DNA of 43,835 nt from Magnetococcales bacterium DCbin2. GTDB taxonomy: Bacteria > Pseudomonadota > Magnetococcia > Magnetococcales > UBA8363. The translations under genes and the position numbers were made by a program. This document shows, piece by piece, positions 9,911 through 21,113 of the stretch. The stretch spans positions 1 through 43,835 of the forward strand of contig PEAO01000010.1 in NCBI GenBank assembly GCA_002753615.1, written 5' to 3'. Each line of letters begins with the position of its first letter. The stretch's first letter is position 1. The notes under the pieces were generated by a model. It saw nothing but the letters and a program-made list of their open reading frames with translations, was not told the origin of the DNA and made no database searches.

Positions 9911-11845
9911 CTACAGCCATCGAGACAACATTCTCGCCAGTTCGTTTTTGCGGACAGGCTTGCACAGATAATCGTCCATGCCGACTTCAAAGCAGCGCTG
10001 TTTATCCTCACCCATGGCGAATGCCGTGACCGCCACCACTTTGACCGGGGTTTGATGCGTCGCTTTCTCCCGTTTGCGTAGGGCCGTCACGGCGGCTAAC
10101 CCATCCATCTCCGGCATCTGCACATCCATCAGCACCAAGGCGTACCGTTTGGCTGCGATCATCTCCAAAGCCTCACGACCATTCCCAGCCAGATCGGGGG
10201 AAAGGCCAAGCTTCTTTAACATTTTCAATAAAACCAGTTGATTGATCGGATCATCATCCACCACCAACACCGGCAACCCATGGTATCGTTCGTTCAGCCC
10301 GGAAGAGAGTCCAAAATCGGGTGCGGCAAAATAGGGTAGGGGGGCGGTTTTGTGGATCAGTTCCAATCCATCTTGTGATCGTTCGGGGGCGGGAACGGGG
10401 GCGGGAATGGAAAATTGAAAAACACTCCCTTGGCCGGGGATGCTTTCGACCCAGAGGTGACCCAGCATAATCTCCACCAGACGTTTGCTGATGGCCAGAC
10501 CCAGCCCGGTTCCACCATACTTATTGTAAATCGTGGCATCCGCCTGTACAAAAACCCCAAAAATCGTCCCAAGCTTGTCCGCTGGAATGCCGATGCCGGT
10601 ATCGGAAACCGAAAATAGCAGTCGTGATTCCTGGGAGGCAGTGTCGTAATCCACGGCAATTCGGATCCAACCCTGATCGGTGAACTTGATGGCATTGCCC
10701 ACAAGATTGATCAGCACCTGACGGATACGCCGATAATCGGCTTGCACCATGTCTGGAACCGTGGTCCCGACCTGGTAGGTGAGCTGCAACCCTTTCTGCC
10801 GTTCCGCAGGTCCGCGCATGATGTTGAAAACGCTCTCCAGCAGATCGTGTGGGGAAAAGAGTTCCGGTTGCGTGTGGACCGCGCCGGCCTCGATTTTGGC
10901 CAGATCCAGGATGTCGTCAATCAGTGTTAGCAACGCCTGACCCGAATCCTTGATGACCCGTATGGCCTGGGCGCGTTCTTCCGGCAGATCTTCGCCGCTG
11001 ATCAGATCTGCCATGCCGATGATGGCGTTCATGGGTGTGCGGATCTCATGGCTCATCATGGCCAAAAATTGGCTTTTGGCCAGATTGGCGGTCTCCGCCG
11101 CGACCTTGGCACGACGTAACTCGTCTTCAATTGTTTTCCGCCCGGTGATATCCCGCAAGGCAGCCAGATAGCTCAAACGCCCGTTCCACAGGGTTTCCGA
11201 GACCCGCATTTCGACGACACGCCGCACACCCCGGTCCAGAGGGACGATATCCAGTTCTGTCGTCTCCCCAGAGGCCACGGGAAAACCAAATTCGTCACCT
11301 TCGTGCAATTCCCGACCATCGAAGATGGTGCGGACAGCAGGGTTGCAGAACTGAATCCGCCCCATGGGATCCACCACCAAAATACCATCGACGTTTTTTT
11401 CTACCAAGCTGCGGAAATTGGCTTGATTCAACTCTCGTTGTAATGGGGTCTGGTTTCGTTGGATGGCTTTGCGCACGGAACCGGAGAGAAAAGGGACCGG
11501 ATCCATCGTCAGGATCGTCTTGACCAGACAATCCTGGGCACCGTGCCGCAGCCCCTCCAGGGCCAATTCCTTATCGTCAAGGCTAGTCAGGATGATGACC
11601 GGCAGGTGTGGTACACGGGTCTTGATCGAAAAGAGGGTCTCCAGTCCGGTACTATCGGGGAGATTTAAATCCAGCAGAATGGCGTCAAACTTTGTCTGTA
11701 TGAGTTCCATCAGCCCCGTCGCCAGATCCCCCGCCCAGGAAACACGAAACGAGCCAACCTCGGCGGTCTCCAATAACTCCCGGATCTGATTGGCCTCGGG
11801 CTGATTATCCTCGATCAGGAGAATGTCAATGCAGGCTGGGTTCAT
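9911..11845 (-). CDS. Hybrid sensor kinase: REC-PAS-HisKA-HATPase-REC
   Basis: 644 aa; N-terminal REC (ILLIEDNQPE, AILLDLNLPDS), PAS (VEKNVDGILVVDPMGRIQFCNPA), H-box SQFLAMMSHEIRTPMNAIIGMADLI, N box LINLVGNAIKFTDQG, G boxes SDTGIGIP/GGTGLGLAIS, C-terminal REC (VLVVDDDPINQ, ALVLMDVQMPEMDG, DDYLCKPV). Confidence 0.93.
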   Translation of the reverse strand: MNPACIDILLIEDNQPEANQIRELLETAEVGSFRVSWAGDLATGLMELIQTKFDAILLDLNLPDSTGLETLFSIKTRVPHLPVIILTSLDDKELALEGLRHGAQDCLVKTILTMDPVPFLSGSVRKAIQRNQTPLQRELNQANFRSLVEKNVDGILVVDPMGRIQFCNPAVRTIFDGRELHEGDEFGFPVASGETTELDIVPLDRGVRRVVEMRVSETLWNGRLSYLAALRDITGRKTIEDELRRAKVAAETANLAKSQFLAMMSHEIRTPMNAIIGMADLISGEDLPEERAQAIRVIKDSGQALLTLIDDILDLAKIEAGAVHTQPELFSPHDLLESVFNIMRGPAERQKGLQLTYQVGTTVPDMVQADYRRIRQVLINLVGNAIKFTDQGWIRIAVDYDTASQESRLLFSVSDTGIGIPADKLGTIFGVFVQADATIYNKYGGTGLGLAISKRLVEIMLGHLWVESIPGQGSVFQFSIPAPVPAPERSQDGLELIHKTAPLPYFAAPDFGLSSGLNERYHGLPVLVVDDDPINQLVLLKMLKKLGLSPDLAGNGREALEMIAAKRYALVLMDVQMPEMDGLAAVTALRKREKATHQTPVKVVAVTAFAMGEDKQRCFEVGMDDYLCKPVRKNELARMLSRWL

Positions 11846-13161
11846 GTTGCGGTTGCCCCTTTGACAGCCTGTTTTTTTTCCATCTTATTGCGGTACATGG
11901 CGGCATCGGCCTCAAGGATCAGTTCCTCCAGGTTGTACGTCTGCTGTCTGGATACTTCGACAAGGCCGATACTTAACGAAAGTTGAAACATCCGTCCTGG
12001 GCGGGCGTTGTTGTGGGCGGTTTCGCGATCCAGTCGCATCAGGATGTTGGACACGGGGCTGTCGTCCCCCAACTGGAAAGTAAGTGCCAAAAATTCGTCT
12101 CCGCCAAGCCGGGCCAGAATGTCCGATTTGCGGAATGCTCGACGCAGGATCGCAGAGGTCTCCACCAGGGCCTGATCCCCAAATTTGTGTCCCAGTAGGT
12201 CGTTAATTGGTTTCATGCCGTCCAGGTCGATAAAAAACAGCACTAGTTTGGCGTTGCTTCTTTCGAGGATCCTGAGTTCCTGTTCTGCGAGCAGAAAAAA
12301 TCCCCGGCGGTTGTTAAGTCCGGTCAACTCGTCCTCCATGGAGAGTTGCCGCAGTTGATCGCGCAAGCGTACGTTTTCGGTGACATCCCGCAGGGCGACC
12401 AGCAGGGCGTTTTTTCCCCGCCATTGGGTTTCTACCGCCCGCATCTCGGCTACCCCCACATCGCCCCCCTTTTGGATGATGTCTACCTCGGTGACATCGC
12501 CCGACACCATGGGAAAGCCGAACGGCAAACCAAGCATTTCGTCTTCGCTGCGCCCGAGCAGAATGATGGCGGAGCGGTTGAGATAGGCGACCCGATTGCC
12601 TTCGCTCAGAATCAGGATGCCATCCACACTCTTTTCGACGATGGCCTGGAAATTTTCCATGCTGGAACGCAAGGCTTCGCGCAGTCTGAGGTGTTCGGAG
12701 ATATCCAGGGCGGCGCAGACATAACCGTCCAGGTTACCATTCGGGGCGCGCAGCGCGGAAACCGAGATCAGCACGGGAATTTTTTGGCCAGATACCCCCA
12801 GTAGCCAGGTCTCCAGGTTGCGAATTGCCCCTTGATGAGCCACCTCCGTCATGCAAGATTCACTCAAAAGTTTCCCTTCGACCAGGATCCGCTCCACAGC
12901 CATCCCCGGCAACCGTTGTCGCGCATAGCCCAGAAGGTCGCCAGCGGCTTGATTGACCCGGAGGATTTTGGCGTCGCGGGAAATCACTAAAACCGCATTG
13001 ACCATGGCATCCAGGATTTCTTGCAGTGAGTCGCGCTCGACCATCGAGGTTGCCAGGGTCCGCACGATGCGATCCAACTGCTCACTGGAGATTTGCGCAA
13101 TCGGCTCCTGGGGAAAAACGTTCATGCTGCTGACCTGAATATTGGGATTGGCTGGATTCAT
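11842..13161 (-). CDS. PAS-PAS-GGDEF diguanylate cyclase
   Basis: 439 aa; MEDELTGLNNRRGFFLLAEQEL, FIDLDGMKPINDLLGHKFGDQAL, LARLGGDEFLAL (intact GGDEF); no EAL domain. Confidence 0.92.
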   Translation of the reverse strand: MNPANPNIQVSSMNVFPQEPIAQISSEQLDRIVRTLATSMVERDSLQEILDAMVNAVLVISRDAKILRVNQAAGDLLGYARQRLPGMAVERILVEGKLLSESCMTEVAHQGAIRNLETWLLGVSGQKIPVLISVSALRAPNGNLDGYVCAALDISEHLRLREALRSSMENFQAIVEKSVDGILILSEGNRVAYLNRSAIILLGRSEDEMLGLPFGFPMVSGDVTEVDIIQKGGDVGVAEMRAVETQWRGKNALLVALRDVTENVRLRDQLRQLSMEDELTGLNNRRGFFLLAEQELRILERSNAKLVLFFIDLDGMKPINDLLGHKFGDQALVETSAILRRAFRKSDILARLGGDEFLALTFQLGDDSPVSNILMRLDRETAHNNARPGRMFQLSLSIGLVEVSRQQTYNLEELILEADAAMYRNKMEKKQAVKGATAT

Positions 13162-13469
13162 GTCCCATCTTCCTGAGGGGAGTCGTTCCCCCCGGCTACT
13201 GCGAAAAATGATCGAAGATGCGCACTGTCCGATAGGTCACCAATAATCTTGAAGGAGGGGGGAGGCTCGATGCGGACCAGTGCTGGCACTGCGACGATGC
13301 GATCCATTTCCGCCCGTTCTGGCGATTTGAGGACATCCACGACCTCCAATTCGGCATTCCCAGAGAGGATGACCTCCTGAATAATCTTGAAGTTGTCTCT
13401 AGCCCTTTGCCCGGCTGGGGTATCTCCCACAACGTAGAGACGATATTGATGCACACTCGTGTCGTTCAT
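13158..13469 (-). CDS. kaiB: KaiB-like protein (divergent paralog)
   Basis: 103 aa; YRLYVVGDTPAGQRARDNFKIIQEVILSGNAELEVVDVLKSPERAEMDRIVAVPALVRIEPPPSFKIIGDLSD, the KaiB thioredoxin-like signature; adjacent to kaiC. Confidence 0.85.
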   Translation of the reverse strand: MNDTSVHQYRLYVVGDTPAGQRARDNFKIIQEVILSGNAELEVVDVLKSPERAEMDRIVAVPALVRIEPPPSFKIIGDLSDSAHLRSFFAVAGGNDSPQEDGT

Positions 13470-13525: not shown

Positions 13526-15043
13526 TCAATCCTGGAACATGCCGGAAAGCCGATCCGCATTGTCTATGTTCAGGTATTCCGGCTTGCCGGTGAGGATACC
13601 GATAATGTTTCGGAACGGTTTGCCGATGTGCATTCCCTTGTCGCTGATGGTGAACTCCCGGATGTCCTTTTCGTGCATGGAGCCACGCATTTTTAGCACG
13701 GTCACTCCGCGCCGCATCTCTCCGAGCATCTCCACATAGCGCAACAGGATGATGGTGTCGGTGATGGAAGAGAAGTGGGATTCGGTCACCGACGGTCCCC
13801 CCATGAGGGTTGCGGTGGTCGCCGTGAACATGCCGGGGATCTCCCGATGTTTGACAAAGGAGGCGAGGCTGATGATGAACTCTCGGAAACCCCGGTCGGT
13901 CCCCACCCGCTCCATGGCCGACACGCTGTCCACGGCCACCCGATCCGGCTTAAAGGCGTCGATTTCCCGTTTGATTGCGATCAGATGGTCCTCCAGTCCG
14001 GCACTTTCGGGATAGGCGCACACCATCCGCAGCAGGTTATCCTGTTCCAGGGCCTCGAAATCGATACCCCAGCCGTGGGCGTTGCGCAATAACTGTTCCC
14101 GGCTCTCCTCATAGGCGAACAACAGACTTTTTTCTCCCTTCTTGGCCCCGCCGCCGATGAACTCCGCCGTCATCAGGGTCTTGCCGCACCCCGTGGCCCC
14201 GGAGACCAAAATCAGCGAATCCCGGAAGAAGCCGCCGCCGCACATGCGATCCATCTCCGGGCTGCCGGAGGGGACGCGCATGGCTGACGAACGCTGTTTC
14301 AGCTCGATGGCCGAAATCGGGATGATAATGATCCCCTGGTCGGGTAATACGGTGAACGGATACTCCCCTTTTTGATGGGTCGTGCCGCGAAATTTTAAAA
14401 TCTCAATGGTCCGGCGGCGTTTTTCTGCCTCCAGGACGTTGCGCAGGATGATCACGTTGTCGGCGACGAACTCTTCGACCCCGAAGCGGGCGATTTCTCC
14501 GAACTCCTGCGTGCGTTCGGCGGTCATCACCGCTGTGACCCCGATCCCCTTGAGGGCCGCGCTCAGGCGACGCAGTTCGGAGCGGACCAGCAAGGCATTA
14601 CTGAACAGGGTAAACACGGCTCCCAGGGAGTCGATGGAGATTCGTTTGGCGTTGACCGTGCGTACTGCATGTTCAATCCGTGCCAGAAGCGCACCCAGAT
14701 CGAACTCCCCAGACTCGATGGCCTCGTCACCGGGTTGCGGAGAGGCGTCCACGAAACGCCACAAACCGCGTTCCTCCCACTCCGCAATGTTCCAATTCAT
14801 GGACAAAAGATTTTTGCGAATCTCCGCAGGATGCTCCTCGAAGGTGACGAAGACCCCCGGCTCGTCGGTCTTGCGGATCCCTTCGGCGAGAAACTGGGCG
14901 GCGAAGACCGTTTTGGCACTCCCAGCGGTACCGGTGATCAGGGTGGTGCGCCCCTTGGGCAATCCGCCCTGGGAGATCAGGTCGAATCCCTCGATGCCGG
15001 TGGAAAGTTTTTCTACGGGAATTTTTGGATTCTCGATAGACAT
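13526..15043 (-). CDS. kaiC: Circadian clock ATPase/kinase KaiC (CI and CII domains)
   Basis: 505 aa; two RecA-like domains with Walker A GTAGSAKT and GATGCGKT, catalytic EE pairs (FVTFEEHP, LLFAYEESREQ), CII phosphosite region SVTESHFSSITDTIILLRYVE aligned to cyanobacterial SITDSHISTITDTIILLQYVE. Confidence 0.95.
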   Translation of the reverse strand: MSIENPKIPVEKLSTGIEGFDLISQGGLPKGRTTLITGTAGSAKTVFAAQFLAEGIRKTDEPGVFVTFEEHPAEIRKNLLSMNWNIAEWEERGLWRFVDASPQPGDEAIESGEFDLGALLARIEHAVRTVNAKRISIDSLGAVFTLFSNALLVRSELRRLSAALKGIGVTAVMTAERTQEFGEIARFGVEEFVADNVIILRNVLEAEKRRRTIEILKFRGTTHQKGEYPFTVLPDQGIIIIPISAIELKQRSSAMRVPSGSPEMDRMCGGGFFRDSLILVSGATGCGKTLMTAEFIGGGAKKGEKSLLFAYEESREQLLRNAHGWGIDFEALEQDNLLRMVCAYPESAGLEDHLIAIKREIDAFKPDRVAVDSVSAMERVGTDRGFREFIISLASFVKHREIPGMFTATTATLMGGPSVTESHFSSITDTIILLRYVEMLGEMRRGVTVLKMRGSMHEKDIREFTISDKGMHIGKPFRNIIGILTGKPEYLNIDNADRLSGMFQD

Positions 15044-15072: not shown

Positions 15073-15393
15073 CTATTGGAGGTTGAGATCGACCGGGAGC
15101 AGATCCAGACCCAGCAGCACCTTTTCCGTGTCCGACAGATCACCGATGATGCGGCGTAGGGGTGGGGGCAGCACCTTGATCAGGGTGGGGGTGGCCAGGA
15201 TTTTTTCGTCCTCGGCCAATTGCGGCTGTTCCAGGATGTCGATGACCCGCATCTCATAGACACCAGACAGGTCATGTTCGCAGATGCGGCGCAGATTTTT
15301 GATGGCACGTTCGGAGCGTGGGGTGTGACCGGTGATGTACAACCTCAATAAAAATTTTTCGCATACGCTCATCGTTTGGCTCTCCTCGCTCAT
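15073..15393 (-). CDS. kaiB: KaiB (canonical type)
   Basis: ORF 15073-15507; probable start at 15393 or 15372; [87 protein letters not shown] closely matches cyanobacterial KaiB. Confidence 0.95.
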
Positions 15394-15428: not shown

Positions 15429-16283
15429 TTATCCGTCCCCCCCCAGGGCGTAGGGACGATAGAAGGAGACCAGACGGCCCATCAACTCGAACGCCAGATA
15501 GCGGCACTCTTCATGGATCGATTCGTTTTTGATCGGGTTTCCCGGAGTCTCCCTGGAACCCAGAGTGGCCAAGTAGATGTCCACCACGTCTCGAGGGCCG
15601 CAACGTAAAAATCCGAGTTCCTCCGAAATTTGCTTCAAGTCGTCGGAGATGTTGAAGACGACCTTGTGGGTTCTCATTTGCAACAGTTTGTCGAGAATTT
15701 CGCCCAACTGTGCGGCGATACGTGCGAACTGGTCGGGATATCCCCCTTTCAATTCCTGGATTCCCAACATGCGCGATGCAATCCGGCTGACATTCCGGTC
15801 GGAGAGACGATCCAGGGAACCTTGTTCCCGCTGGCGTCGTTCCTTCTCACGCACCTGTTCCAATTCCCGATGCAAGGTGTGGCGTTCCAGGGCGTAGCGA
15901 ATGGAACGAAACAGCAGATTGCCGTCGATGGTGTTCTTGACCAAGTAATCCTGGGCACCGCTGCGCACGGCTTGGATGGCCAGGGACTCGTCATCCAGAC
16001 CGGACAGGACGATGACAGGATAGTCCACATTCCGGTTACGAATCCGTTCAAAGGTCTCCAGACCTACCGAGTCGGGAAGATTGAGATCGACCAGCAGGAT
16101 ATCGAACTCGGTACCATCCATCTGTTGGAGTGCTTTGGACAGACTATCCACCTGGGTCACCAGAATCCGGGAGGGGAGAATGGTGGTCGGATGGCCTGAC
16201 AGCTCCACCAGCCATTCGTCCAGCAGTCCGGCAAATCCCAGATCGTCTTCAACCAGCAGAACCCGAATGGTTTGGCCTACCAT
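15429..16283 (-). CDS. Response regulator with C-terminal candidate KaiA-like domain
   Basis: ORF 15429-16304, probable start ATG 16283 preceded by AGGAAGG; N-terminal canonical REC ([28 protein letters not shown]); C-terminal ~100 aa helical domain. REC call firm, KaiA-like call is inference. Confidence 0.75.
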
Positions 16284-16304
16284 AACGCATGCCCTTCCTC
16301 GCAT

Positions 16305-16763
16305 TCAGGTCGTCTCGCCGTTTTTAGGCGGAAGTTTGACCACGGAAAACCAAAAATTCTCCACCGATTTGACGACCGCGAAGAATTGATTGATATCCAC
16401 CGGCTTGGTGATGTAGCAATTGGCGTGAAGGTTATAGGTGCGCAAGATGTCTTCGCCGGCCTGGGATGTGGTCAGGATGACCACGGGAATCGCTTTTAAC
16501 GCATCGTCCGCCTTGATCTCTTCCAGCACTTCCCGCCCATCTTTGCGGGGCAGGTTCAGGTCCAGCAACACCACATCAGGACGTGTGGCATGGGCGTAGC
16601 ACCCCTGCTGACGCAAATATTTCATCGCCTCCTCGCCATCCTCGACCACGTTCAGGCGGTTGAGCATTTTGCTGTCGGCCAGGGCTTCCCGGGTCAATTC
16701 CACATCACCGGGGCTGTCTTCAACCAGGAGAATTTCCACAGGTTTGGCGCAATTTGGATCCAT
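16305..16763 (-). CDS. Rcp1-like single-domain response regulator
   Basis: 152 aa; [78 protein letters not shown], typical of Rcp1-type receivers. Confidence 0.9.
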
Positions 16764-16847: not shown

Positions 16848-19469
16848 TCAATTGGAATTCAAAGCGGACGGATTGGCATCGGGGATAGAAAAATGGAACG
16901 CACTCCCCTGGCCCGGTTTCGACTCTACCCAGATCTTTCCCTTATGGAGTTCGACGATCCGTTTGCATAAGGCCAAGCCGATGCCGGTCCCTTCGTAGCG
17001 GGTGCGGGAGTGGAGTTTTTGAAAAATCAGGAAAATCCGTTCCTGGTGATGGGCTTCGATGCCGATACCGTTGTCCTGGACTGTGAAAATCCAGTGTCCT
17101 GGCCCCCGTTTGGCGTGGATCTGTACCTTGGGCGTTTCCTCTGAGCGGAATTTTAAGGCGTTACCCAGCAAGTTTTGGAATAACTGGGTCAATTGTACCG
17201 GGTCGGCGTGTAGTGTTGGCAGGGAGGTACTGGTTACCTCGGCTCCGGTGTCGTGAATCCGTTGCGCTAGGTTGGCTATGGCCCGTTCCAGGGAGAGGTT
17301 TGCGTCGGTTTCCTCGAACGCTTTGTCCCGGGTACCTGTCCGGGCGTAGGTGAGCAGGTTATTGATCAAGGTCTGCATATGGCCGACACCATCGACGGCA
17401 TAGGCGATGTATTTATCGGCCTGTGCGTCTAACTGGCCGCGATAGCGTTTTTCCAGCAATTGGACATACCCGGCAATCAGCCGCAACGGTTCTTGGAGAT
17501 CGTGACTGGCGACATAGGCAAATTGTTGGAGATCCTGGTTGGACCGTTCCAACTCCTGAGTCCGTTCCGCCACCCGGTGTTCCAGATTCAGGTTTGTCGC
17601 CTGGAGATGGTCCTCCAGCCGTTTGCGCTCGGAAATATCCTCAATCACCGCAACGAAAAATTGCGGTTCGCCATCTGGGCTGGTCAGTAGCGAAACCGTC
17701 AATAATACCCAGATCGGGTGGCCAAGCTTATGCAGACAGCGTTTTTCCAGGGAGTAGCGGGAGATTTCTCGGTTGAGCATACGACGTGCGTATTTCAGGC
17801 CCGTCTCCAAGTCGTCGGGATGGGTCATCTCCTGGAAACTTTTTGTTGCCATCTCGGCGCGGGTAAAGCCGGTGATTTCGCCAAAACGGTTGTTGAGCAA
17901 CAAAAATGTCCCGTCTATGGCGACATGGGCGATACCGACGGCGGCTTGTTCAAAGGTTGCCTGGAATTTTCGCCGTTCCTCCTCCAACGAGTGTTCAAAG
18001 TTCAGGCGTTCGGAGACATCCCGGAAAATCCCCTGGATCACCTTGTCATTATCTCCCAGATCGGTCACTCCAGCACGAATTTCTACGGGGACACGGCCCC
18101 CGTCTTTGCGGAGGACGACAATGCCGGTGAGCAAACCACGTCCTCTGCGGACATTCTCCTCGAACAGACTGCGGTAGCGTTCGCGTTCTTCTGGGGGATG
18201 CAGCGCAGTCTGATGCATACCGATCACTTCGTGGACCGGGCATCCCAACAATTCGCCCGCCATAAGGTTGGCCTCTGTGATGATCCCGGTTTGGGCATCG
18301 GCGATAAAAATGGCGTCATTGGCCGATTCGATCAGAAGACGATACTTCCGTTGGGTGCGCAAGAACACCTCTCTGGCCTGATTGGCTTGGGTGACATCTT
18401 TGGCCATGAGGAGGAATCCGGTCAACTTGTTATCCCGGTCCAGGATGCTGGAGAGACGTGCTTCCATGGTCCGTTCTTTGCCGTCCCGGTTGATGTGCAT
18501 CTCAAAACTGTGTTCTCCCCGTTCCATGACGCTTTGGATCGCCTCGGTCAACGGGTTTTCATGGATCCCAGTCCACTCGTGGATTTCCTCGATGTTGTGG
18601 TTCAGTACCGATTCGGCCCGGCGGTCGAACAACCTTTCTGCTTCCGGGTTAAAATAGCGGATACACAAGGTTTGATCCGTGGCCACGATCGCCAGATCGG
18701 TGGCGGTGCGCAGGATGTTGTCCAGGTAGGCGGTGTTTTTTTGTAGAGAGGCCTGGGTCTTGACGAGTCGTTCACGGCTTTCGCGCAGTGCCGCAGTCTC
18801 CATGAGTTGCTGTACCATGGGATTGCTCACTTTGTAAAATAACAACGTCCCCAATCCGATGACCACCACGCCAACGGCAAACACCATCCCCCCAGCGTGG
18901 ATGAAGGGGCGGCGGATCTCATCCATATCAATCTTGGCCACCATCCCCATTTCCAATTCCTTGACAGGCTCGTAGGCAGCCAGGACCGTTTGGTTGCGAT
19001 AATCCTGTCCGATCAACACCCCGGAACGACCCGCCAACGCCGCGCGCATCGGTTCGGCGAGTCTGGAGTCTGGTGGCACGGGGAGGGGTTGATCGATGTC
19101 TGTATGGCGATGGCGCAAAACAAAGAGAATATTTTTGCCTTCCAGCTTGCCCATGGTGAATTCTCCGGTTTCACCGAAGCCCACGAAATGGCGATGGGCA
19201 TCCCGGACCTGCGCCATGGTCGATTCCACCACCTGCTGCATCGATGATGCCCCGTGTTCGCCCAGGTGGGCGGCCTCTTGGCGGGCGATGGCCTCCATCA
19301 ATCGCGCACGGCTTTGCACCGTCTCCTCCAGCCGTTGTTGGGTCTGATCGAAGGAGACTTCATAAAGAACGGCGATAGAGATCCCGCTCATGATCAACCC
19401 GACCAGTGCCATAATGAGGATCAATAGCAGAATGTGCGTAGTCTCTTCTCTTTTTCCCAGGGCCATCAC
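16848..19469 (-). CDS. Membrane sensor histidine kinase with extracytoplasmic sensor region and multiple PAS domains
   Basis: 873 aa; two TM segments flanking an extracytoplasmic region, several PAS/PAC blocks, phytochrome-type HisKA (LQQFAYVASHDLQEPLRLIAGYVQLLEKRYRGQL), HATPase (NLLGNALKFR, DNGIGIE, GTGIGLALCKRIVELHKG). Confidence 0.93.
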   Translation of the reverse strand: MMALGKREETTHILLLILIMALVGLIMSGISIAVLYEVSFDQTQQRLEETVQSRARLMEAIARQEAAHLGEHGASSMQQVVESTMAQVRDAHRHFVGFGETGEFTMGKLEGKNILFVLRHRHTDIDQPLPVPPDSRLAEPMRAALAGRSGVLIGQDYRNQTVLAAYEPVKELEMGMVAKIDMDEIRRPFIHAGGMVFAVGVVVIGLGTLLFYKVSNPMVQQLMETAALRESRERLVKTQASLQKNTAYLDNILRTATDLAIVATDQTLCIRYFNPEAERLFDRRAESVLNHNIEEIHEWTGIHENPLTEAIQSVMERGEHSFEMHINRDGKERTMEARLSSILDRDNKLTGFLLMAKDVTQANQAREVFLRTQRKYRLLIESANDAIFIADAQTGIITEANLMAGELLGCPVHEVIGMHQTALHPPEERERYRSLFEENVRRGRGLLTGIVVLRKDGGRVPVEIRAGVTDLGDNDKVIQGIFRDVSERLNFEHSLEEERRKFQATFEQAAVGIAHVAIDGTFLLLNNRFGEITGFTRAEMATKSFQEMTHPDDLETGLKYARRMLNREISRYSLEKRCLHKLGHPIWVLLTVSLLTSPDGEPQFFVAVIEDISERKRLEDHLQATNLNLEHRVAERTQELERSNQDLQQFAYVASHDLQEPLRLIAGYVQLLEKRYRGQLDAQADKYIAYAVDGVGHMQTLINNLLTYARTGTRDKAFEETDANLSLERAIANLAQRIHDTGAEVTSTSLPTLHADPVQLTQLFQNLLGNALKFRSEETPKVQIHAKRGPGHWIFTVQDNGIGIEAHHQERIFLIFQKLHSRTRYEGTGIGLALCKRIVELHKGKIWVESKPGQGSAFHFSIPDANPSALNSN

Positions 19470-20282: not shown

Positions 20283-20442
20283 TGTTCAAAATCCCGGCAG
20301 TCTAGCCTTAATGAACACAACACGGCCCAATTCTCTTCGATTCCGGGCGGGTTTGCAAGTTTAATCAGGAATTTTGGGCTGTTGTTGGGTGGCGTCTTGT
20401 GGTACGCTGGAGGCAGTTGTAACCTCTGGAAGGAGAGTTGCC

Positions 20443-20721
20443 ATGACGGCGGTTGCTTTCGATACCCTCAGATACGTAAGAACCCTCAAGGCTGCTGGGG
20501 TTGAGGAGAGACAGGCTGAGGCTATGGCTGAAGCCCAAGTTGACCTTATGGAACAAGTGGAAGACACGCGCCTTAAAGAATTGGCTACCAAAGGTGACGT
20601 TCGGCAACTTGAAGTCAGGATTGCTGAATCCAAGGCCGAGACCATCAAGTGGATGTTTGGGGTGGCTGCCGGGCAGGCCATGTTCATCATCGCCATCCTC
20701 AAGTTGTTCCCATCGCACTGA
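20443..20721 (+). CDS. DUF1640-like coiled-coil protein with C-terminal TM helix (copy 1)
   Basis: MTAVAFDTLRYVRTLKAAGVEERQAEAMAEAQVDLMEQ...IKWMFGVAAGQAMFIIAILKLFPSH; near-identical to the following ORF. Confidence 0.8.
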   Translation: MTAVAFDTLRYVRTLKAAGVEERQAEAMAEAQVDLMEQVEDTRLKELATKGDVRQLEVRIAESKAETIKWMFGVAAGQAMFIIAILKLFPSH

Positions 20722-20801
20722 TCTTTCGGAATTTTGGGCTGTTGTTGGGTGGCGTCTCGTGGTACGCTGGATGTGGTTGTAACTTTGCAAGGAATTTTGT
20801 C

Positions 20802-21113
20802 ATGACGGCGATCGCTTTCGATACCCTCAAATACGTAAAAACCCTCAAGGCTGCTGGGGTTGAGGGGAAACAGGCCGAGGCTATGGCTGAAGCCCAAATT
20901 GATCTTATGGAACAAATGGAAGACACTCGTCTTAAAGAGTTGGCTACCAAAGGTGACGTTCGGCAACTCGAAGTCAGACTTGAATCCAAGATCATGCAAG
21001 TTGAAGTCAGGATTGCCGAATCCAAGGCCGAAACGATCAAATGGATGTTTGGGGTGGCTGCCGGGCAGGCCATGTTCATCATCGCTATCCTCAAGTTGTT
21101 TCCTTCGCACTGA
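20802..21113 (+). CDS. DUF1640-like coiled-coil protein with C-terminal TM helix (copy 2)
   Basis: MTAIAFDTLKYVKTLKAAGVEGKQAEAMAEAQIDLMEQ...; tandem copy with an 11-residue insertion (LESKIMQVEVR). Confidence 0.8.
   Translation: MTAIAFDTLKYVKTLKAAGVEGKQAEAMAEAQIDLMEQMEDTRLKELATKGDVRQLEVRLESKIMQVEVRIAESKAETIKWMFGVAAGQAMFIIAILKLFPSH

Follow-up and report, generated by a model that had tools for sequence, protein, structure and literature searches.

The gene at positions 15429-16283 of the window, by which is meant the whole stretch of 43,835 nucleotides analysed here, is likely to encode a KaiA3-type regulator of the KaiC specified downstream of it, in which a divergent KaiA C-terminal domain is joined to a phosphorylatable receiver. 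The reading is built, by computation, on the domain architecture of the protein, its KaiA-type predicted fold, its genetic linkage to and co-occurrence with kaiBC, and a KaiC tail of the matching kind. The host, a non-photosynthetic magnetotactic bacterium, is represented by a Magnetococcales genome bin, whose nearest named relative, Magnetococcales nWRX3bin6, has a protein of 96% identity. The gene and the parts of its product are as follows.

15429-16283, minus strand: kaiA-like gene, 284 aa, receiver followed by a linker helix and a KaiA-type C-terminal domain (domain scan, homologue alignment, AlphaFold, Foldseek)
15879-16283, minus strand: receiver domain, residues 1-135 (PF00072, E=2e-17), with E12/D13, D66 and K116 in columns invariant over 20 homologues
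15798-15875, minus strand: linker helix, residues 137-162, a probable coiled coil (AlphaFold model, moderate confidence)
15447-15737, minus strand: KaiA-like four-helix C-terminal domain, residues 183-279 (core pLDDT >90, Foldseek, hhalign)

The coding sequence starts with an ATG at 16283, behind a purine-rich stretch, and its stop codon ends at 15429; translation might instead begin at another ATG in the same frame, at 16304. The preliminary description had placed the gene at the same position and had read in its product a complete phospho-receiver, on the basis of three motifs that are all present: VEDD, VDLNLPD (carrying the phospho-acceptor D66) and YLVKN (carrying K116). The Pfam match and the invariant columns listed above bear out this assignment. 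Downstream of the receiver, the C-terminal block ([28 protein letters not shown]...[22 protein letters not shown]) is kept in 22 other loci at 26-96% identity, with the motifs GPRD, E..RxL...ELMG and YR nearly invariant, and this conservation indicates that the domain is no chance tail of an open reading frame. Three further explanations of the gene were considered and rejected: a frameshift or assembly artefact, since an intact copy, 96% identical, exists in another metagenome-assembled genome (MAG); a DNA-binding output of the NarL type, since no helix-turn-helix match was obtained and the model shows a bundle of the KaiA type; and a remnant of canonical KaiA taken from cyanobacteria, since the receiver is intact and the family is widespread and divergent.

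The gene lies directly upstream of kaiB-kaiC, as had been described, with a gap of 56 bp to kaiB1 on the same strand, within a cluster that runs along the minus strand in the order sensor kinase, response regulator, kaiA-like gene, kaiB1, kaiC, kaiB2, PAS-PAS-GGDEF gene and hybrid kinase.

16848-19469, minus strand: PAS-HisKA-HATPase sensor kinase, candidate phosphodonor (domain scan, neighbourhood comparison)
16305-16763, minus strand: stand-alone response regulator, conserved as the immediate upstream neighbour (PF00072, neighbourhood comparison)
15073-15372, minus strand: kaiB1 (PF07689, E=1.9e-30; NCBIfam circadian KaiB)
13526-15043, minus strand: kaiC, double-domain, with a Ser-Ser pair at the CII phosphosites (SHFSSITDT; NCBIfam circ_KaiC TIGR02655, 648 bits against a cut-off of 546)
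13529-13663, minus strand: C-terminal tail of KaiC (residues 461-505), a homologue of the A-loop and KaiA-binding tail of S. elongatus KaiC, free of a coiled-coil extension (alignment)
13158-13469, minus strand: kaiB2, a second, divergent KaiB (PF07689, E=3e-21)
11842-13161, minus strand: PAS-PAS-GGDEF protein, overlapping kaiB2, candidate output through c-di-GMP (domain scan, neighbourhood comparison)
9911-11845, minus strand: REC-PAS-HisKA-HATPase-REC hybrid kinase (domain scan, neighbourhood comparison)

The closest relative of the kaiA-like receiver within the cluster is the N-terminal receiver of the hybrid kinase at 9911-11845, at about 40% identity. The kaiB2 gene at 13158-13469 has no KaiC of its own and overlaps the start of the PAS-GGDEF gene; since kaiB2 stands beside a second KaiC in relatives, it may be the leftover of a second kai set. 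The KaiC of the window shows a weak match to the MEDS profile. Elsewhere in the window, two adjacent and similar coiled-coil genes that are CCDC90-like (PF07798) were observed at 20374-20721 and 20790-21113.

The kaiA-like gene is no isolated oddity, as its C-terminal domain accompanies kaiBC in nine lineages. A scan of the genome collection with this domain alone led to 22 loci being fetched, and in 21 of them it is found directly upstream of kaiB-kaiC, in Magnetococcales, Thiotrichales, Betaproteobacteria, Tritonibacter, Nitrospinota, Spirochaetales, Myxococcales, Chloroflexota (Thermoflexales) and UBP7; at the exception, a Chthonomonadales locus (L034), kaiB was not found within 10 kb, and one kaiB is present elsewhere in the genome. 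Among 48 Magnetococcales genomes, the 20 that carry the domain are all nested within the 22 that carry KaiB (Fisher p=1.4e-11), and among 201 Chloroflexota genomes KaiB is present in 13 of the 14 that bear the domain (p=3e-16), both p-values being optimistic given that the genomes are related. The domain is nonetheless no general companion of kaiB, because the rest of the sample from the window's phylum includes 13 genomes with KaiB and the domain was found in none of them. Additional copies were observed in two settings. In two tandem clusters (L027 8834-13780 and L029 775-6634), a shorter paralogue of the receiver/KaiA-like protein comes after kaiA-kaiB-kaiC and is succeeded by kaiB2 and kaiC2; in the second KaiC the phosphosite pair is Ser-Thr (AHISTIT), as against Ser-Ser in KaiC of the first type. 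In five Chloroflexota loci (L060, L064, L067, L069 and L070), a second protein with receiver and KaiA-like domain has no kaiB within about 1.5 kb, and a PAS-PAS version of the KaiA-like protein is also present in these, upstream of kaiBC.

What precedes the domain varies between lineages. Its N-terminal partner is a receiver in Magnetococcales, UBP7, Betaproteobacteria and Tritonibacter, a receiver-PAS combination in Nitrospinota, PAS in Thermoflexales (at a contig edge) and PAS-PAS in many Chloroflexota. Furthermore, a MEDS-PAS-PAS-KaiA-like protein is encoded upstream of kaiBC in a Spirochaetales MAG (L037 1-1779), and in a Myxococcales MAG the domain forms the C-terminus of a HisKA-HATPase kinase, again directly upstream of kaiB-kaiC (L039 4011-5264). 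A conserved KaiA-like domain with a varying signalling part fits the notion of input modules that feed a common KaiC-binding effector.

The KaiC proteins encoded beside the domain share a feature of their own. All 25 of them have a short canonical tail, of 43-51 residues past position 460, and these tails, that of the window KaiC included, align with residues 461-507 of S. elongatus KaiC, which comprise its A-loop and tail; at loci that lack the domain, 15 of 17 KaiCs have tails of 107-120 residues, forming a charged, heptad-like extension as in Rhodobacter KaiC, and the other two end early, at the A-loop. This pairing of the domain with a short KaiC tail would be expected of a protein that acts in the manner of KaiA. 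It is of note that the KaiC tree has two deep clades and that the KaiA-like label needs only two changes on it, so that the correlation with the tail reflects few independent events. The KaiCs of L121 and L123, which belong to the cyanobacterial-like clade and lack a KaiA-like gene, are on a long branch nested among the KaiCs that have the KaiA-like partner, and end at the A-loop; these truncated proteins are possibly KaiA-independent derivatives.

The relationship of the C-terminal domain to KaiA is visible by profile-profile comparison and by fold only. The KaiA profile PF07688 gave no match at E<=1 in the window protein and 19 homologues, nor at E<=10 in some 20 further members or in the whole host genome, and its curated cut-off was reached by none of the approximately 40 family members scanned; in the reverse direction, hmmsearch of a Magnetococcales C-domain profile against PDB sequences yielded a single chance match (E=7), with KaiA absent. 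Comparison by hhalign of a 45-sequence family profile with a KaiA profile made of three PDB sequences gave a score of 23.8, co-linear across all four helices, above the maximum of 20.1 in 300 trials with column-shuffled KaiA and that of 16.9 among 168 real protein segments of about 100 residues from the window (mean 10.7, sd 2.1). The KaiA profile is thin, as a search of plasmids and viral contigs for cyanobacterial KaiA with which to enlarge the alignment found none, and the hhalign probability is 18%, a value at which this comparison alone would not settle homology. The register at which it arrives independently is the same as that proposed by eye in the preliminary description; the KaiA sequence used there is the KaiA C-domain of Nostoc/Anabaena PCC 7120 (1r5q), correct save for one residue. 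The structural alignments give only 8-20% identity to KaiA. In KaiA, H270/H271 matter for the action on KaiC; the equivalent position holds Arg in the window protein and His in only 18 of the 44 members checked.

The predicted fold points the same way. The AlphaFold2 model of the window domain is a four-helix bundle (core pLDDT >90), and Foldseek against 350,542 PDB chains places a KaiA C-domain first (1q6a, prob 0.99), with further KaiA entries among the top 50 (5jwr, 5c5e, 1v2z, 5n8y, 1r8j and 1r5q). A replicate model was made from the core of the Spirochaetales member (L037), which is 32-42% identical to other members; it has a pLDDT of 92.7, its ranks 1-4 are all KaiA (prob 0.99-1.00), and it superposes on KaiA with a TM of up to 0.72 and an rmsd of 2.9 A over 98 columns. 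The two models are not fully independent, since their alignments are partly shared, and the Foldseek E-values are weak (about 0.1, above 0.05), as a small domain made only of helices would lead one to expect; what carries weight in these predicted structures is that KaiA comes first twice in an unbiased search of the PDB. The bundle that had been anticipated from the letters is thus the one that is predicted, with KaiA as the best PDB match of both models. In regard to the proposal of a KaiA-like protein, fold and hhalign support KaiA, and the failure to pass PF07688 places the protein with the KaiA3 type rather than with KaiA proper.

No confident profile match to an unrelated helical domain emerged; the one recurrent weak Pfam match is RsbU_N, whose fold class the KaiA C-domain shares. 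It raises an alternative to which we give a low probability, namely that the C-terminal domain is a partner-recruitment domain of the RsbU_N type that binds, instead of KaiC, some other protein such as a switch kinase, in an output regulator merely sited in a kai cluster. Five distant members match RsbU_N weakly (E=0.005-0.15, over overlapping columns) and none matches PF07688, although even in these distant members the best score for PF08673 (RsbU_N) is 17.4 bits, below the cut-off of 25.5. The second fold search also retrieved RsbU_N structures (TMt 0.53-0.58), and the partner site of RsbU is located where KaiA binds KaiC (PMC11372060). KaiA, however, ranks above RsbU_N in both fold searches, with a TMq of 0.64-0.72 and an rmsd of about 3 A for the replicate as against 0.44-0.47 and about 6 A, and hhalign scores RsbU at 18.5 as opposed to 23.8 for KaiA. 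The domain is moreover strictly linked to kaiBC, and the KaiCs to which it is linked have tails of the KaiA type, no RsbT-like kinase was found among the cluster genes scanned, and the domain stands at the C-terminus, behind receiver, PAS or kinase modules, rather than N-terminal to a PP2C phosphatase.

An equally improbable alternative is that the protein is an input or output response regulator of KaiBC, comparable to the SasA and CikA partners, which would bind KaiB or phosphorylated KaiC and relay the state of the clock without activating KaiC. In its favour, kinases and receivers abound in the cluster, the protein has a canonical receiver, and at one Myxococcales locus the domain forms part of a histidine kinase; yet it is the KaiA-like domain that is conserved across phyla while the signalling part varies, and its presence tracks the KaiC tail, which is the KaiA site, and not KaiB as such. 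A third alternative, convergence, is very improbable; the four-helix bundle would then bear no particular relationship to KaiA, and its fold match and synteny would be coincidental. Small helical bundles match many proteins and the Foldseek E-values exceed 0.05, but models of two divergent members both retrieved KaiA first from the whole PDB, the sequence profiles agree in register with a score above every null, and the fold match was found without use of gene linkage.

The preferred reading, that of a KaiA3-type regulator, suggests a mechanism whose steps are modelled on the biochemistry of KaiA and KaiA3 (PMC11372060; PMC5520375). The four-helix domain most likely dimerises and captures the exposed C-terminal A-loop and tail of KaiC; by keeping the tail exposed, the dimer would promote autophosphorylation of CII at the Ser-Ser pair. 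KaiB1 would later bind KaiC and sequester the KaiA-like protein, whereupon KaiC would dephosphorylate. The presence of a true phosphorylatable receiver suggests that this activity is probably gated by one of the histidine kinases in the cluster. In other phyla the same KaiA-like domain carries PAS, MEDS-PAS-PAS or kinase modules instead of the receiver. For the output, the GGDEF protein is a plausible candidate.

These observations suggest that profile databases understate how widely complete KaiABC-type timers occur outside cyanobacteria. A broader proposition, which we offer tentatively, is that a KaiA-type activator of KaiC is an ancient and widely shared module of the KaiC lineage that lacks the coil, present in many non-photosynthetic phyla under interchangeable sensory heads. 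If so, many kaiBC loci thought to lack KaiA would be complete, signal-gated KaiABC timers, with two tandem sets in some Magnetococcales, and KaiA would be no cyanobacterial invention. According to a 2025 review, no sustained oscillation could be obtained in vitro with Kai proteins of other bacteria or archaea (PMC12378183); should sequence divergence have hidden the cognate KaiA, earlier in vitro tests may have missed the right partner. The family described here offers candidates for the missing proteins in non-phototrophs, ties a KaiA-type activator to the KaiC tail on which it would act, and displays input modules exchanged on one effector domain, so that how Kai clocks arose and how they are entrained can be put to direct test beyond the cyanobacteria.

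A survey from 2017 recorded KaiA in cyanobacteria only (PMC5520375), and in 2024 KaiA3 orthologues were listed for five non-cyanobacterial genera, Roseiflexus, Chloroflexus, Chloroherpeton, Rhodospirillum and Bradyrhizobium (PMC11372060). The suggestion in the preliminary description of a full KaiABC-type set outside cyanobacteria is therefore supported here and is not new in itself, and the window protein taken alone is a further member of the KaiA3 type, a kind already known. The family goes beyond published KaiA3 in lying below the threshold of the KaiA profile, in reaching many more phyla and in carrying sensor modules other than the receiver. How widely it is spread, the exchange of its sensors and the correlation with the KaiC tail seem to be unreported: no prior account was found in the literature searched, which consisted of mostly open-access published papers, and none that joins KaiA, a PAS domain, Chloroflexus and KaiB.

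Among known systems, the closest likeness is to KaiA3 of Synechocystis sp. PCC 6803 (Sll0485), which interacts with KaiC3, promotes its autokinase activity and supports an oscillation of KaiC3 phosphorylation in vitro (PMC11372060). Both proteins have a phosphorylatable receiver and a KaiA-type C-domain, both genes lie directly upstream of kaiB-kaiC, and both KaiCs are devoid of the coil; the likeness is one of architecture and synteny as published, and synteny of the kaiA3-kaiB3-kaiC3 type occurs in the window and its relatives. The window differs in its non-phototrophic Magnetococcales host, the Ser-Ser pair of its KaiC, and the additional kaiB2, GGDEF protein and two kinases. Canonical cyanobacterial KaiA (PF07688; 1R8J, 1Q6A, 5C5E) shares the four-helix C-domain, the two-part architecture, the place upstream of kaiBC and the matching KaiC tail, whereas the window protein has a true receiver in place of a pseudo-receiver devoid of the phospho-acceptor Asp, and a C-domain of low identity that lies below the Pfam cut-off. 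With the N-terminal domain of RsbU (PF08673; 1W53, 2J6Y), the similarity is one of general four-helix fold, together with the weak matches from distant members; that domain superposes worse, has no link to kaiBC and is part of a PP2C phosphatase that acts in the partner switch of the stress response. Lastly, the KaiA-independent KaiBC system of Rhodobacter sphaeroides (8DBA; PMC10076222) is likewise non-cyanobacterial, but there KaiA is absent and KaiC bears a coiled-coil tail, which serves the KaiA-null system in its stead (PMC10076222), whereas the window KaiC lacks that tail. The window KaiC is much closer to cyanobacterial KaiC than to that of R. sphaeroides (about 595 as against 340 bits), its closest solved counterpart being 8zn5 (724 bits), clearly above S. 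elongatus KaiC.
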